From: Boothiomyces macroporosus
Taxonomy: Eukaryota > Chytridiomycota > Chytridiomycetes > Rhizophydiales > Terramycetaceae
NCBI GenBank assembly: GCA_027604185.1
Contig: JADGKB010000084.1
Coordinates: 1 to 63,232, forward strand
Direction of reading: 5' to 3'
DNA length: 63,232 nucleotides
Below are positions 761 to 63,232 of this stretch, piece by piece. Position numbers and translations under genes: made by a program. The notes under the pieces are model-generated. The model ran no database searches. It was not told the DNA's origin and saw only the letters and a program-made list of their open reading frames with translations. The stretch's first letter is position 1. Each line of letters starts with the position of its first letter.

Positions 761-2326
761 ATGTCAAATCTGTGGTCAGCCAAAATCAAGAATGAAACTG
801 AAAAGTCTCGCATTCAATCAACTACCATCAATCAAATGATACTCTCGTTTATCGTTTGGTAATTCTTGTTGATGTAGGCTATTTATCACTGTTCCTATGG
901 CGGTTTACACTCACTATGTTCACAGTGGAGCCCAACCTTTCGATAGAGGCAATGCAGACAGTTGGTACAACTACAATGCATCTATATTCACTTTCACTGG
1001 GTTATCTGCTTTCTTTGCGATGCTTACAGCAAAGTCAAATGACAAAAAGTCTTTGGCAATTGTATTGGGATTGGTTAATCTTATCACTCTATGTTCATAT
1101 CTCACAATAGCGAAACGGTTGACACCCAATGTACCAGATAGCAATGGGTATCCTGTCGACTTTGCCAGATATTTGGAATGGATTGCTTGCTGCCCAAACA
1201 TGGTTCTTTTAATTGGAGAATTCACTAAAGATGCTGAATATACATCCCAAACCTTTCTGAATAATTATGTCATGTTATGTTGTGGTTTTTTGGCATCAGT
1301 TACTGGCGAATCGTTATCAATCATCTTTACTAGCATTACTGTGTATCTTTTCATAAAGGTTATGACAGGGCTACACAGGATGTATTCAAATGCCATAGAT
1401 GGACGAACTGGATGTACATTGGACCGCACTATGGTTAGAATTGCTAATATCACCACCACTTTCGGTTGGAGTTTATGTATGACAACGCTAACCTAGTTCC
1501 TATTGTTTGGTTTCTGGTGCGATTTAAGGTGATTAGTTTTGAAACCGGAGAAATGCTATACTGCTTTGGAGACATTGTCGCCAAAGCGTTCTTGACCCTG
1601 GTGTTGGTTAACGCTACAATCGAACATGCTCAAAATGAAACTATCCAGCGAATTTCAGGGATCGCTTCTGTAATGGAAAGGGAAATGAACAACACAGACG
1701 TTGTATTAGAAAAGTTTATTCCACCAGAAGTGCTTTCTAATATTAAAGAAGGTAACTTCCCAGAAGCACAAGACTATGAGAGCGTAACCATTTTATTGAG
1801 TGATATTACAAACTACAATGTACTTTCAGCGAGAAATTCTACCCGCGATGTGCTAAAGACTCTAGATTCACTTTGGTCAAAGTACGAAGAAATTGGTAAA
1901 AAGTGGGGAATATATAAAGTAGAAACTATTGGGGATGCGTATTTGGGCGTTAGTGGATGTCCAACTAGATCCGAAAATCATGCTGAAAACTGCTTAAATT
2001 TCGCGTTGGATATACTGGAAATGACAACAGAATTCAAAACTGAAACAAAAGAAGGAATACAAATTCGAATTGGAATACATTCTGGTCCAGTTGTAGCTGG
2101 CCTAATGGGAGCAAACAATCCTCGTTGGTGTATAGTTGGAGACTCAGTTAGCACCGCATCGCGAATCGAAGCGCTTTCAAAGCCAATGAGGATTAATATC
2201 TCTGAATCTACTTATGAGCTGGTCAAGGACAAGAATATGTTTGAATTTAGCGGGCCAAATTCCTACGAAGTCAAAGGGAAAGGAAGGTTCAACATGTATT
2301 GGGTTTCTCGTTTAAATAAAGAATAA
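761..2326 (+). CDS. Rhodopsin-guanylyl cyclase fusion (light-gated cGMP synthesis)
   Basis: Exons 761-858, 878-1476 and 1497-2326 encode 508 residues. Introns are 19 and 20 nt. The N-terminal half is a microbial rhodopsin. It shows a helix-3 motif RYLEW with R130 and counterion E133, a helix-6 motif W-S-L-F-P, and a helix-7 motif D258-I-V-A-K262, where K262 is the retinal Schiff-base lysine. An extra hydrophobic segment near residues 25-45 fits the eight-helix topology of enzyme rhodopsins. A short linker leads to a cyclase domain with D335 and D379 (metals), E375 and C444 (guanine) and R455. The usual catalytic Asn is replaced by S451 (DSVSTASR). Family knowledge: such fusions drive zoospore phototaxis through cGMP. 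Partnering with the upstream paralogue is inference. AATAAA overlaps the stop codon. Confidence 0.93.
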
Positions 2327-2395
2327 ATGGCATTTCTGGTTCAAAGCCCTTAAATTGCTTCATCACAAGCTCAAAATATCTCGTGAAAAAAAGAA

Positions 2396-4532
2396 ATGAA
2401 TCGCCGTCTGCTCATCAAGTACCTAACCAGTAATATTAGATCGTTGAACAGAAATTTATTGACAAAGAGATTCCAGCAAACATTTGCGAATCAAGATAAA
2501 GTCCCTCGATTGCCAATTCCAACTCTGGAAAATCTGGAACAGAAATATTTGAAATCTTGCCAACCACTGCTCTCAAAGGAAGATTATGAAAAAACCGAAT
2601 CGATTGTAAAGGAATTCTTGAGCAAAGGTTTGTGATGTTAATGTAGACGGATTCGGGACTACTTTACAGGAACGTTTGATTGAATACGAAAAGAAGGAAC
2701 CAGTAATCTGTTTTTAATCCAGCATTCCTGGTTGGAAAAGATTTGGCTTCAAAAGGCATATTTGGAATGGAGAGAGCCTAGCATGATCAACGTCAACTGG
2801 TGGTGTCAACTGGTTGATCACCCAGAGCACCCGCTTGATTTACTCACAAAACCTCCTCCAAAGGGAGTATTGACTTCGTTCCAAATTAAAAGAGCCGCAG
2901 GATTAATCACAAATCTGTTGAATTTCAATGACATGTTAAACAATCAAACTTTCCCAGCAGAATCGATTAAGGGTACGCCATTATGTATGAATCAATATAA
3001 AAACATTTTCGGTACCACCAGATTGCCTGGAAAGACTTCTGATTCTCTAAGCCATCAATATCCTACAACTGCAAAACACATTATTGTCCTTACAAAGAAC
3101 GAAATCTTTAAAGTTCAAGTTTTGACTGATGATGGAAAGAGAGTCCCAATCGCAGAGATTGAACGCGTTCTGTTGAATATTGGAAAGGAAACTTTAGTTG
3201 AACGTAGCCCACCTCATATTGGCGTTTTGACTGCTGGTGATCGTGATACTTGGTTCGAAGCTTATGAAAAGCTACGTGCCCTCTCGCCTACAAATGTCAA
3301 AAACTTTGATATCATCAAAGATGCTCTATTTGCCGTTTGTTTGGACGACCATTCCACTAAAAAGAATTTGGATCAATCATTAACGCAGATTTTCCACAAC
3401 AATAATGCTCAAAACAGATGGTTTGACAAATCTTTACAATTGATTGTTGCAAATAGCGGAAGAGCTGGTTTAAATGGTGAAGTAAAGGATCCCTAATCAT
3501 AGCACACTCCATCTGATGCGGTTGTACCAGGCAATGTAATGGACTACATTATATCTCAGTAATTCGCAATACTAAAAATAGTGAACCATCTATTGATCCT
3601 GAGAATGCCGCACAAGGAGAATATCTTGCCCCACCTCAAAGATTAGATTGGGTTGTTGATGACTCTGTGAATGCTCTAATTGAAAAAGCAAGAGGAGTTG
3701 CACAAGCTCTGATTGATGATACTGAAAGTACTCTTCTTCAGACCGATTATTATGGATCCAGATTTATGAAGGAAGTAGCAAAGACCTCTCCTGATGCTTA
3801 TATCCAAATCGCTCTTCAACTTGCATACTATAGGTTGCACAAGAAGCCGACTGCTGTTTATGAGTCTGCATCCACCCGTTTCTTCAAACACGGAAGAACT
3901 GAAACTGGTAGAAGCATGTCAAATGAAAGCTTGGAATTCATCAGCACCTTTGACAACGATGATGTTTTGGTATTTGTATTTTAATTTAGTATGACTCCAA
4001 ACGTGAATTGTTTAAAAAAGCAGTCAACACCCAATCAAACTACATGAAGGATGCTGCTTATGGAAAGGGAATTGACAGACATATGCTTGGATTGAGATGC
4101 ATGATTAAACCAGATGAAATGGACAAAGCAACCATGTTTACCGACCCTGCTTACATTACCTCAATGACATTTAGACTCTCCACAAGTAACATGTCCCCTG
4201 GAAGAAACTTTTATGGTGGATTCGGACCAGTCGTTTTTGACGGATATGGTATCAACTACGCGATTGACAAGGATAACCTCAAATTCTCCATCTCTGCTAA
4301 ACGCTCATGCACTGAAACCAAAATATACAGATTCAAGGATGAGTTGGAAAAAGTATTTAAAGATCTATGCATCCTCTTCCCAAAGAGAAGTGAAGTATGG
4401 GGAAAGAACTGGAGAAAAGATCAACAAGCTGAAAAAGTTGCAGACATCAGATTTGCCAAGATGAAGGCTCTTAGTGATGAATACCTTACCAAACAAGCTT
4501 CATTGGCTGAAAAATATTCAAAGAAAGCTTAA
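2396..4532 (+). CDS. Carnitine O-acyltransferase (CrAT-like)
   Basis: Six exons (2396-2627, 2647-2702, 2723-3481, 3503-3558, 3582-3969, 3990-4532) encode 677 residues, typical for the choline/carnitine acyltransferase family. Introns are 19-23 nt. The N-terminus is basic and hydroxylated, compatible with a mitochondrial presequence. It is followed by the family opening RLPIPTLENLEQKYLKS. The catalytic histidine lies in GEHTPSDA directly after intron 3. The C-terminal part includes the substrate-site stretch TFRLSTSNMSPG. The enzyme moves acetyl or other acyl groups between CoA and carnitine for shuttling between mitochondrion or peroxisome and cytosol. The acyl specificity cannot be read here. 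There is no C-terminal AKL-type peroxisomal signal; the end is YSKKA. Confidence 0.93.
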
Positions 4533-4551
4533 TAAACTTTTACCAAAAATT

Positions 4552-61855: not shown

Positions 61856-62319
61856 TTAAGCGACTTCAGACCAACCTGGCAACAAATAGGTTTTGAAATA
61901 TTCATAGTCCCATTCATAAATTGAGAGTTTTGACAAATCCTGGTTCCACACATAGACATCTGCCTCTACAGACTGAATTCCCTTTTCTAATGTAACTAGA
62001 ACGTTGGCTGTAATTCGCTTGTACAACTATAATTAAGAGGAATTACGCTAGATTCAAATCGATCGAGTAGTTCAATTATATCCGCTCCTACCTCACACAA
62101 GTCACCCACCACCTGCGCACCCTCTGATGGATAAATCGCTGGGTAAGGTGCGTTATCTACTTTTACTCTTCTGTAGTCCTGGAGTATCACGTTTGAAATT
62201 CTCTTTGGAGTAATTTTAGTGACTTTTGAGAATACAATATCACTTAGCAACGATCCATATACTAATACTGGACGGAGTTTCCCATCTGTTTCTACGATAG
62301 CTTTTGATCCCATAGGCAT
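61856..62319 (-). CDS. AIG2-like / gamma-glutamylcyclotransferase-fold protein
   Basis: Exons 62047-62319 and 61856-62026 (20-nt intron) encode 147 residues. The fold signature VLVYGSLLSD near the start is the substrate-binding YGSL motif, and IIELLDRFES carries the family glutamate. Middle block NAPYPAIYPSEGAQVVGDLCEV and aromatic end YVW...YEWDYEYFKTYLLPGW are typical of AIG2-like proteins. The reaction may be cyclotransfer on gamma-glutamyl amines; this is inference. It converges with the SCOC-like gene, 29 bp between stops. Confidence 0.88.
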
Positions 62320-62457
62320 AGATTTTACAGAAAAAGAAAAAAACACCTGCGCAGAAATGTAGGGTTGAATCCAATTCAAGGCTAGTTAAATAATTGGTGT
62401 GCATGGTCATTGCCACTGTATCCCCATATTTTGGCTTGAATTTTTTTTATTTTTTTT

Positions 62458-63232
62458 ATGAGTGAACCTGCAACAAAGAAACAAAAGTTGAATCCATATT
62501 TAGCTCATAGAGAGTTGAAATTAGTTCCTGGAAAGACTACAGCAGAGCAAGCGGAACAGCTGGAAGATGCACCAACCAATCACTTTACCGGCCGTCCTTT
62601 TTCAGAAAAGTATAGAGATATTTTGGTGAAGAGGAGGCTGTTGCCAGTCCACAAACAGCGGTCAGAATTCTTGGATTTGATCCACAGCAACCAGATATTG
62701 GTGCTGGTTGGAGAGACTGGGTCCGGAAAGACCACACAAATCCCCCAGTTCTTGTTATTTGACGAGCAACCACAGCTAAAAAACAGACAGATTGCATGCA
62801 CACAGCCGAGAAGAGTGGCAGCAACGTCAGTAGCAAAGCGTGTGGCAGAAGAAATGGACGTTGAATTGGGAGAGGAAGTGGGATATTCTATCCGTTTTGA
62901 AGAGTGCACATCGGACAAGACACTGCTAAAGTACATGACTGATGGTATGCTTCTCCGCGAAGCCATGACAGACCCACTGCTAAGCAGATATTCGGCCATT
63001 ATTTTGGACGAAGCGCACGACAGAACTTTGGCTACAGATATATTGATGGGTCTCATCAAGGGGGTAATAACATACTAATGTAGATTTGCCGCAAGAGAAG
63101 AGATTTGAAGGTAGTAGTAATGTCGGCTACTTTGGACGCAGAAAAGTTTCAAAAGTATTTCGACAATGCACCATTGATGGTAAAGTATATCTAATTCTAG
63201 AGCGTTCCAGGTAGAACCTTCCCAGTAGAAAT
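62458..63232 (+). CDS. PRP43: DEAH-box RNA helicase Prp43/DHX15 (5' part)
   Basis: Exons 62458-63063, 63084-63179 and 63201 to the window end; introns are 20 and 21 nt. About 244 residues are visible. Motif [15 protein letters not shown], motif Ia [12 protein letters not shown], motif II DEAH in [11 protein letters not shown], and motif [17 protein letters not shown]. The head [42 protein letters not shown] region fits Prp43, which releases the excised intron lariat from spliceosomes and acts in ribosome assembly. The 3' two-thirds lies outside the window. Confidence 0.92.

Follow-up and report, generated by a model that had tools for sequence, protein, structure and literature searches.

Predicted spliceosomal introns of mostly 19-22 nucleotides across the genome of the chytrid Boothiomyces macroporosus

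Introns of 18-21 nucleotides (nt) have been described in chlorarachniophyte nucleomorphs, in about 300 genes of a relic intracellular nucleus (PMC10245619). Stentor introns are reported to be 15-16 nt long, with the branch adenosine (branch A) at position 10-11, no strong consensus, and introns in 18% of genes (PMC9505925). In mikrocytids, which are parasites, introns of 16-17 nt were described, 224 of them in one species, and 17-19 spliceosomal proteins together with U2, U4, and U6 were identified (PMC10245619). Paramecium introns are given as around 25 nt (PMC5014332). In this study, we analyzed a stretch of 63,232 nt (hereafter, the window) from Boothiomyces macroporosus (Terramycetaceae, Rhizophydiales, Chytridiomycota; assembly of 15,203,306 bases in 216 contigs). 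Its reading frames are interrupted by GT..AG segments, mostly 19-22 nt long but in rare cases 18 and at most about 26 nt, at a density of about two per kb of coding sequence (CDS). These segments are very probably U2-type spliceosomal introns that have been cut down genome-wide to little beyond their recognition signals. Among the literature matches listed there was no report of ultrashort introns in chytrids, in a search that left most of the subscription literature outside.

The predicted introns resemble those of the nucleomorphs in their nearly equal length range and narrow distribution, and differ from them in lying in the nuclear genome of a fungus, at about 2 per kb CDS. Stentor, like this fungus, is free-living and has canonical pairing sequences in U1, U2, and U6; in both, 5 nt follow branch A and the introns are AU-rich. 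In contrast to Stentor, the branch lies at position 14-16 within a clear YTRAY motif, and 109 of the 129 gene models retained in our sample contain a short intron. Extreme shortness, a narrow range, and conserved signals are also features of mikrocytid introns; unlike in mikrocytids, U1 and all tested proteins except RED were found, and the spliceosome does not appear reduced among the components tested. Paramecium is likewise free-living with short introns throughout, in another lineage and at slightly greater length. The nearest named protein matches come from Boothiomyces, Terramyces, Globomyces, and Kappamyces, Rhizophydiales chytrids rather than chlorarachniophytes or heterotrichs, in agreement with the fungal host proposed earlier. 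The introns thus look like those of the ultrashort class, here in an intron-rich fungus.

An independently written semi-Markov/Viterbi gene finder (codon usage, start, stop, and intron) was applied to 263,232 bases from 21 contigs, consisting of the window and twenty 10-kb stretches (C1, C2, C4-C21) of the same assembly. In the flat model, GT..AG ends were the sole rule, no motif was used, and all lengths of 6-120 nt had equal cost; its codon table was trained on motif-based models and was identical for all twelve dinucleotide pairs examined. The window alone already gave a length peak at 18-22 nt. Across the sample, 224 GT..AG segments were called, 113 of them 17-27 nt long, with 25, 33, and 27 calls at 19, 20, and 21 nt. 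Eleven control dinucleotide pairs, run with the same finder and costs, gave only 16-31 calls of 17-27 nt each, without a comparable peak. The total score was also highest for GT..AG (6128.6 vs 5811.5-6025.0 in the controls). Because length and motif were both withheld from the model, we regard this control as the strongest single result, and the excess of 113 calls over 16-31 per control pair excludes chance.

When the same finder was given a learned intron motif, it predicted 454 introns in the sample, of which 410 were 17-27 nt long; gene models scoring below 8 were excluded from these counts, which reduced 143 models to 129. The lengths were 18 (6 introns), 19 (89), 20 (151), 21 (105), 22 (37), 23 (14), 24 (4), 25 (3), and 26 nt (1), so that 382 of 410 fell at 19-22 nt, a narrow peak under about 25 nt. 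The density was 1.95 short introns per kb CDS. Scaled by length, this would amount to about 23,700 short introns in 15.2 Mb, false calls counted in. Retention without a frameshift or a stop is possible for just 37 of the 410. Stop-free introns of length 3n were in no excess (37 of 115, or 32%, vs 41% stop-free read-through among the 295 introns of length 3n±1). The remaining 44 of the 454 predictions lay outside 17-27 nt and included one 13-mer. Many of those longer than 27 nt were gene fusions as judged by eye, and no clean class of long introns was seen beyond a 57-nt intron in the GAPDH gene. We also considered whether exons avoid intron-like sequences, and rejected this: strict decoys numbered 9 in sense and 17 in antisense, against a mean of 18 after codon shuffling (range 9-27, 30 shuffles), so that the depletion in the sense strand is weak, two-fold, and based on small numbers.

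In the window, the motif model yielded 30 gene models, 24 of which contained introns of 18-26 nt, 105 in all, with lengths of 18 (3 introns), 19 (19), 20 (32), 21 (23), 22 (16), 23 (5), 24 (4), 25 (2), and 26 nt (1). If retained, 100 of these would cause a frameshift or an in-frame stop. The finder missed at least four introns, namely 57905-57925 and three in a WD40 gene (13262-13280, 13401-13421, and 13511-13530). Since eight calls were discounted, as described below, and four added, about 100 is a fair figure for the window. The original prediction, about 105 introns of 18-26 nt placed in 37 genes, was therefore matched in its intron number by an independent count, with 97 left after the discounts and at least four missed. 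Its genome-wide scope was borne out as well, as the 20 further contigs showed the same length peak. Its mode of 20-21 nt narrows to a single mode of 20, and its statement that almost all introns are tiny fits the sample apart from at least one longer intron, that of GAPDH. The joins said to restore diagnostic motifs held for HR/DIKPSN (42013-42030), WSL/FP (1477-1496), and FSHA/WFHHRE (6864-6884). Both proposed 18-nt introns, 39320-39337 and 42013-42030, add an in-frame stop if retained. Six 18-mers were called in the sample, of which these two and one in L022 have an in-frame stop if retained and three do not. The three supported 18-mers allow a branch A at position 14, followed by 4 nt. Introns of 18 nt are real but rare, and counts fall steeply below 19 nt.

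We next compared 30 joins with homologous proteins; 27 were supported by other genera or farther relatives, 1 by congeners only, 1 was refuted, and 1 was undecided. Alignments with PDB relatives supported all four joins of a MAPKK gene (41435-42533, plus strand; introns 41717-41735 of 19 nt, 42013-42030 of 18 nt, 42156-42175 of 20 nt, and 42391-42409 of 19 nt), which are gapless against human MEK1. Support was also complete for the following genes: a UBE2K/Ubc1-like gene (29290-29900, ends approximate, minus strand; 29526-29545, 20 nt, and 29657-29675, 19 nt; both gapless against yeast E2-24K); a ClpP-like gene (43950-44617, minus strand; 44304-44324, 21 nt; gapless); a Rab8-like gene (44800-45368, end approximate, minus strand; 44907-44927, 21 nt, 45023-45042, 20 nt, and 45283-45304, 22 nt), whose three joins fall within a 171-residue ungapped match to Rab-8A; eIF6 (47690-48394, end approximate, minus strand; 47828-47848, 21 nt; within a 229-residue ungapped match); and PRP43, truncated by the window end (62458-63232, plus strand; 63064-63083, 20 nt, and 63180-63200, 21 nt; within a 220-residue ungapped match to yeast Prp43).

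The USP3-like gene (55245-56731, end approximate, minus strand) has introns at 55607-55626, 55697-55716, 55863-55882, 56124-56143, and 56252-56271 (20 nt each) and 56346-56368 (23 nt), and PDB relatives supported four of its six joins. The join at 56124-56143 is backed by Terramyces, Globomyces pollinis-pini, and P0244 proteins; that at 56346-56368 falls in a stretch of variable length, where agreement with relatives is undecided. P0244, an unbroken USP3 frame of 464 residues, lies on a Logan contig of 2,239 bases that may be the transcript of a relative and would be at most an indirect sign that the segments are missing from mature mRNA. A reading of the protease at 55-57 kb as USP22 was rejected, since the relatives retrieved by the protein search are named USP3. 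In the peptidyl-tRNA hydrolase gene (56910-57838, plus strand; 56990-57011, 22 nt, 57165-57187, 23 nt, 57283-57302, 20 nt, and 57466-57484, 19 nt), three of four joins are backed by Kappamyces and the fourth by Boothiomyces proteins only. The NDUFA9 gene (57887-59149, plus strand), which matches HK103_007148 of Boothiomyces macroporosus, has introns at 57905-57925 (21 nt), 58005-58027 (23 nt), 58210-58230 (21 nt), 58323-58347 (25 nt), 58490-58510 (21 nt), 58861-58881 (21 nt), and 58949-58969 (21 nt). In the set tested, which excludes 57905-57925, six of seven joins are backed by chytrid proteins, and the seventh, the call at 59102-59119, was refuted.

These comparisons bear on whether in-frame coding pieces or neighboring genes were taken for introns by the finder or by a reader. 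Such artefacts do occur. The 18-nt call at 59102-59119 is coding, as relatives have residues there; 55253-55274 is coding in relatives, as read by eye; and six more calls join neighboring genes or lie antisense, also by eye (2296-2321, 2430-2451, 8388-8409, 20364-20387, 20505-20529, and 21792-21815). As a general account, however, this explanation is refuted by the GT..AG excess over the controls, the frameshift or stop that retention would bring in 100 of 105 segments, and the 27 of 30 homologue-backed joins, and we consider it highly improbable. Sequencing or assembly errors, or pseudogenes, could be suspected from a frame break about every 500 coding bases, but would give neither lengths of 19-22 nt nor GT..AG ends with a branch motif at a set place, and the proteins of two Boothiomyces assemblies (P0121, P0122) omit several of the same segments; this source is less probable still.

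The consensus of the short introns was GTAAtt..(Y)TRAY-N(1-3)-YAG, with a GC content of 30%. The introns started with GTA in 365 of 410 cases and ended with YAG in 345. Position +5 was G in only 17%, despite the U1 5' end ATACTTACCTG, and +6 was T in 53%. When scored with a learned distance preference, branch A was placed at position 14 in 140 introns, 15 in 191, and 16 in 53 (384 of 410), positions being uncertain by one within TAA. This corresponds to 13-15 nt from the first intron base of the 5' splice site (5'SS) to the branch. When branch A was picked without the distance preference, 5-6 nt followed it in 341 of 408 introns, the 412 short introns of the penultimate round minus 4 without a candidate. 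From 19 to 23 nt, the growth was shared: the branch, mostly at 14 in the shortest, lay at 16-17 in the longest, and the tail lengthened from 5 to 6-7 nt. The GAPDH gene (7436-8515, plus strand, named by eye) contains a first intron of 57 nt (7439-7495; GTGAGT..CTAACCCTAG) immediately 3' of the ATG. Unlike the short introns, it is GC-richer and has a strong GTGAGT start, and it carries CTAAC, the A of which is followed by 6 nt. Because of this intron, the splicing machine should also process longer introns with the same 3' geometry.

We then searched the assembly for the splicing machinery. A U6 small nuclear RNA (snRNA) candidate carrying ACAGAGA, two copies of U2 (with GTAGTA in the copy read), and a U1 candidate with the canonical 5' end were found. 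SF1 was found at 114.6 bits and U2AF35 in four pieces. The best match for U2AF65 reached 230.7 bits and not the curated cut-off of 310.3, because the gene is split by introns. Slu7, Prp18, and SMU1 were also found. The U2AF65 and Slu7 genes themselves contain segments of the same kind, recognized by eye and measured at 19-20 nt. In yeast, substrates with a short distance from the branch to the 3' splice site (3'SS) are reported to be independent of Slu7 and Prp18 (PMC10711555), and loss of the two proteins was therefore expected; this idea was dropped, as both genes are present. In the Prp18 gene (L036), a stop-free 21-nt segment resembles, by eye, a frame-keeping intron, and plain translation shows a 7-residue insert. 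With this segment omitted, the region, which would correspond to the conserved loop, reads by eye much like the human protein.

Frame-restoring removal of GT..AG segments, a branch motif that can pair with U2 GUAGUA, candidates for U1, U2, and U6, and homologue-backed joins are all consistent with U2-type introns. Together with the SF1/U2AF genes, these findings agree with the spliceosomal identity given in the original prediction, and the inspection of U1, U2, and U6 that it had proposed yielded candidates with canonical pairing sequences. One of its statements fell: the 5'SS-branch distance of 10-12 nt was understated by about 3 nt. The losses of SF1/U2AF for which it had proposed a check were not found, the genes for SF1 and for the large and small U2AF subunits all being in the assembly. 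Removal at the DNA level, as for internal eliminated sequences (IES), or ribosome bypassing would also concern short AT-rich segments with exact joins, as are known there; GT..AG ends, a U2-fitting branch motif, and the presence of the snRNAs and SF1/U2AF argue against both, and TA stands directly at the 5' boundary in only 18 of 410 introns, so that we give this explanation hardly any credence. U12-type introns of a minor spliceosome, for which no point speaks, are refuted for the bulk of the introns by the motif counts (GTATCC start in 1 of 410, CCTTRAC in 1 of 410; AT-AC was modelled only as a control pair, and U11, U12, U4atac, and U6atac were not searched for), leaving them next to no probability.

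Several observations weigh against spliceosomal introns at these positions or against the details given here. That the segments are spliced at all is inferred from the DNA sequence. At least 8 of the 105 window calls are not introns, and the 97 left were not individually checked. GTAAGT starts just 19 of 410 introns, and the strict branch (C/T)T(A/G)A(C/T) is present in no more than 293. The distance preference used in branch scoring was learned from the data, and the set scored without it was itself found by the motif model. The U1 candidate (68.8 bits) lies just under the Rfam cut-off of 69.5. RED_N was not found in the assembly search, in which the control genomes gave no match either. Some relatives also disagree with the joins. 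After 56990-57011, six residues that Kappamyces P0144 retains are absent from the Boothiomyces proteins P0121 and P0122; P0122 differs at 58005-58027 and omits a stretch between 58210 and 58347; P0121 omits a stretch between 58861 and 58969; and P0241 and P0242 lack stretches adjoining some USP3 joins. Finally, the steric reading that follows is itself inferred.

For U2-type introns of this size, U1 and SF1/U2AF would act first, followed by U2 and U6, and the signals would be recognized by intron definition. Two-step splicing of the ordinary type would follow, with a lariat loop of 14-16 nt. If U6 pairs near +4 to +7, and if U2 covers some five bases upstream of the branch and a single base downstream of it (about 9-16), then with a branch at position 14 the U6/5'SS and U2/branch helices would abut, with one or two bases to spare. 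As the U6 and U2 pairings must lie side by side, a lower length bound would result, and abutting helices would account for the floor as well as for the narrowness of the peak. Such a floor is not universal, since branch A of Stentor lies at position 10-11. In the human B complex, a 17-nt U6/5'SS helix and a 14-nt U2/branch helix are described with about 21 nt between them, over a 5'SS-branch distance of about 52 nt, and about 50 nt is said to be needed (PMC6692369). Long helices of the human type with a 21-nt bridge would be impossible here, which points to shortened helices or to a compact, sequential hand-over from U1 to U2/U6. In human extracts, SMU1 and RED are reported to become essential when the 5'SS-branch distance is short (PMC6692369). 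The shortest natural branch-3'SS distance of yeast is given as 10 nt (to the G of AG), and Prp18 is called a ruler (PMC10711555). The machinery is of the same kind as in budding yeast, including Prp18 and Slu7; the distance is at least 10 nt in that yeast, as far as this source describes it, vs mostly 5-6 nt here. The 3'SS used would thus be closer to the branch than the yeast minimum, despite Prp18 and Slu7. A 5'SS-branch distance of 13-15 nt appears to serve most genes of this fungus, with the tested early factors present.

Proteins of relatives provide a lead suggesting that the trait is wider than one species. P0242 (Terramyces USP3) lacks 8 residues directly after the fifth USP3 join, and P0249 (Globomyces sp. 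USP3) lacks 7 immediately behind the sixth, with further losses close to joins two and four. No such loss at the USP3 joins is seen in G. pollinis-pini (P0243). In P0121 and P0122, the 6 absent residues would immediately follow the first hydrolase join; at this site, the 22-nt intron of the window could end 18 nt later at another AG. Such losses flush with joins could be the footprint of a gene finder that mishandles introns too short for it. We also noted that P0122 and its congener P0121 fuse peptidyl-tRNA hydrolase and NDUFA9 (56910-59149). In the window, a stop ends the hydrolase gene, and NDUFA9 likely has a separate start at 57887. Because the public protein P0122 omits some of them, the short introns are already in the databases; we saw no discussion of them.

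A broader reading, tentative and in our judgment somewhat less probable than its opposite, is that free-living Rhizophydiales (at least Terramycetaceae and Globomycetaceae) may have shrunk their introns to the steric floor of a canonical spliceosome, with introns and early factors kept. The branch would be pinned at 14-16 by abutting helices, and the long B-complex helices and the human form of the SMU1-RED bridge would be bypassed, RED possibly being lost. Database models would then be missing 6-8 conserved residues immediately on one side of an intron. For chytrids of this kind, gene models as well as completeness scores may be in error, as in P0122, where two genes are fused and conserved stretches lost. 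Strains of B. macroporosus from soil or water, on pollen, are listed (PMC11210171), so that the minimal splicing geometry is directly testable.

Gene names in the window were mostly assigned by eye, including all names in this paragraph. On the plus strand, a cyclase-like gene (761-2326) has introns at 859-877 (19 nt) and 1477-1496 (20 nt), and a carnitine-acyltransferase-like gene (2396-4532) at 2628-2646 (19 nt), 2703-2722 (20 nt), 3482-3502 (21 nt), 3559-3581 (23 nt), and 3970-3989 (20 nt). The 3' part of a MOB1-like gene was modelled (6632-7017; 6766-6785, 20 nt, and 6864-6884, 21 nt). With its three introns of 19, 21, and 20 nt, all placed by eye, removed, the CIAO1-like WD40 gene becomes a single open frame (12988-14010). 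A MAPEG-like gene (39160-39645) has the 18-nt intron 39320-39337. An ACMSD-like amidohydrolase gene (48927-50029) has introns at 49464-49484 (21 nt), 49642-49662 (21 nt, stop-free if retained), and 49879-49898 (20 nt), and an AK6-like gene (50151-50720, end approximate) at 50334-50352 (19 nt) and 50499-50518 (20 nt). A membrane protein gene and a methyltransferase-like gene were fused in one model (59498-61826; 59928-59947 and 61688-61707, 20 nt each). On the minus strand, an IQGAP-like gene (8580-12267, end approximate) has ten introns, at 8945-8964 (20 nt), 9247-9267 (21 nt), 10220-10241 (22 nt), 10463-10483 (21 nt), 11097-11118 (22 nt), 11261-11281 (21 nt), 11632-11653 (22 nt), 11880-11901 (22 nt), 12032-12054 (23 nt), and 12224-12245 (22 nt). 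A lipase-like gene (27937-29070) has three introns of 19 nt (28110-28128, 28487-28505, and 28653-28671), and a NIF3-like gene (29940-30768, end approximate) has introns at 30052-30071 (20 nt), 30406-30424 (19 nt), and 30556-30574 (19 nt). MSP-domain-like and WD40/RING-like genes, fused in the model (31456-38907), have introns at 33150-33168 (19 nt), 34426-34447 (22 nt), 36399-36418 (20 nt), 36635-36653 (19 nt), 36728-36749 (22 nt), and 37049-37068 (20 nt). Also on the minus strand are a Rab-like gene (42998-43598; 43288-43306, 19 nt), an amino-acid-transporter-like gene (45668-47088; 45699-45719, 21 nt, 45764-45783, 20 nt, 45796-45814, 19 nt, 46211-46230, 20 nt, and 46383-46403, 21 nt and stop-free if retained), a longin-like gene (51262-51709; 51444-51463 and 51660-51679, 20 nt each), and an HMG-box region with a neighboring gene (53364-55220, ends approximate; 53495-53515, 21 nt, 54129-54149, 21 nt, 54303-54324, 22 nt, 54758-54778, 21 nt, and 54884-54904, 21 nt and stop-free if retained).

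Short introns were also placed in genes of less specific character. These are a small membrane protein gene (15434-16050, minus strand; 15634-15655, 22 nt, and 15776-15794, 19 nt), a coiled-coil-like gene (16240-17585, plus strand; 16559-16577 and 17457-17475, 19 nt each), and two small genes (39916-40253, plus strand; 40014-40033, 20 nt; and 61856-62319, minus strand; 62027-62046, 20 nt). Tandem multi-span membrane paralogues on the plus strand (19076-25956) have introns at 19791-19811 (21 nt, stop-free if retained), 20867-20886 (20 nt), 21275-21295 (21 nt), 22163-22182 (20 nt), 22571-22590 (20 nt), 23833-23854 (22 nt), and 25187-25206 (20 nt). By eye, about six related multi-span membrane protein genes are arrayed in tandem at 19076-27383. 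A phosphagen (arginine/creatine) kinase gene at 5034-6305 has no predicted introns; its relatives are found in Terramyces, Globomyces, and Kappamyces, and its product is 87% identical to a Terramyces sp. JEL0728 protein.

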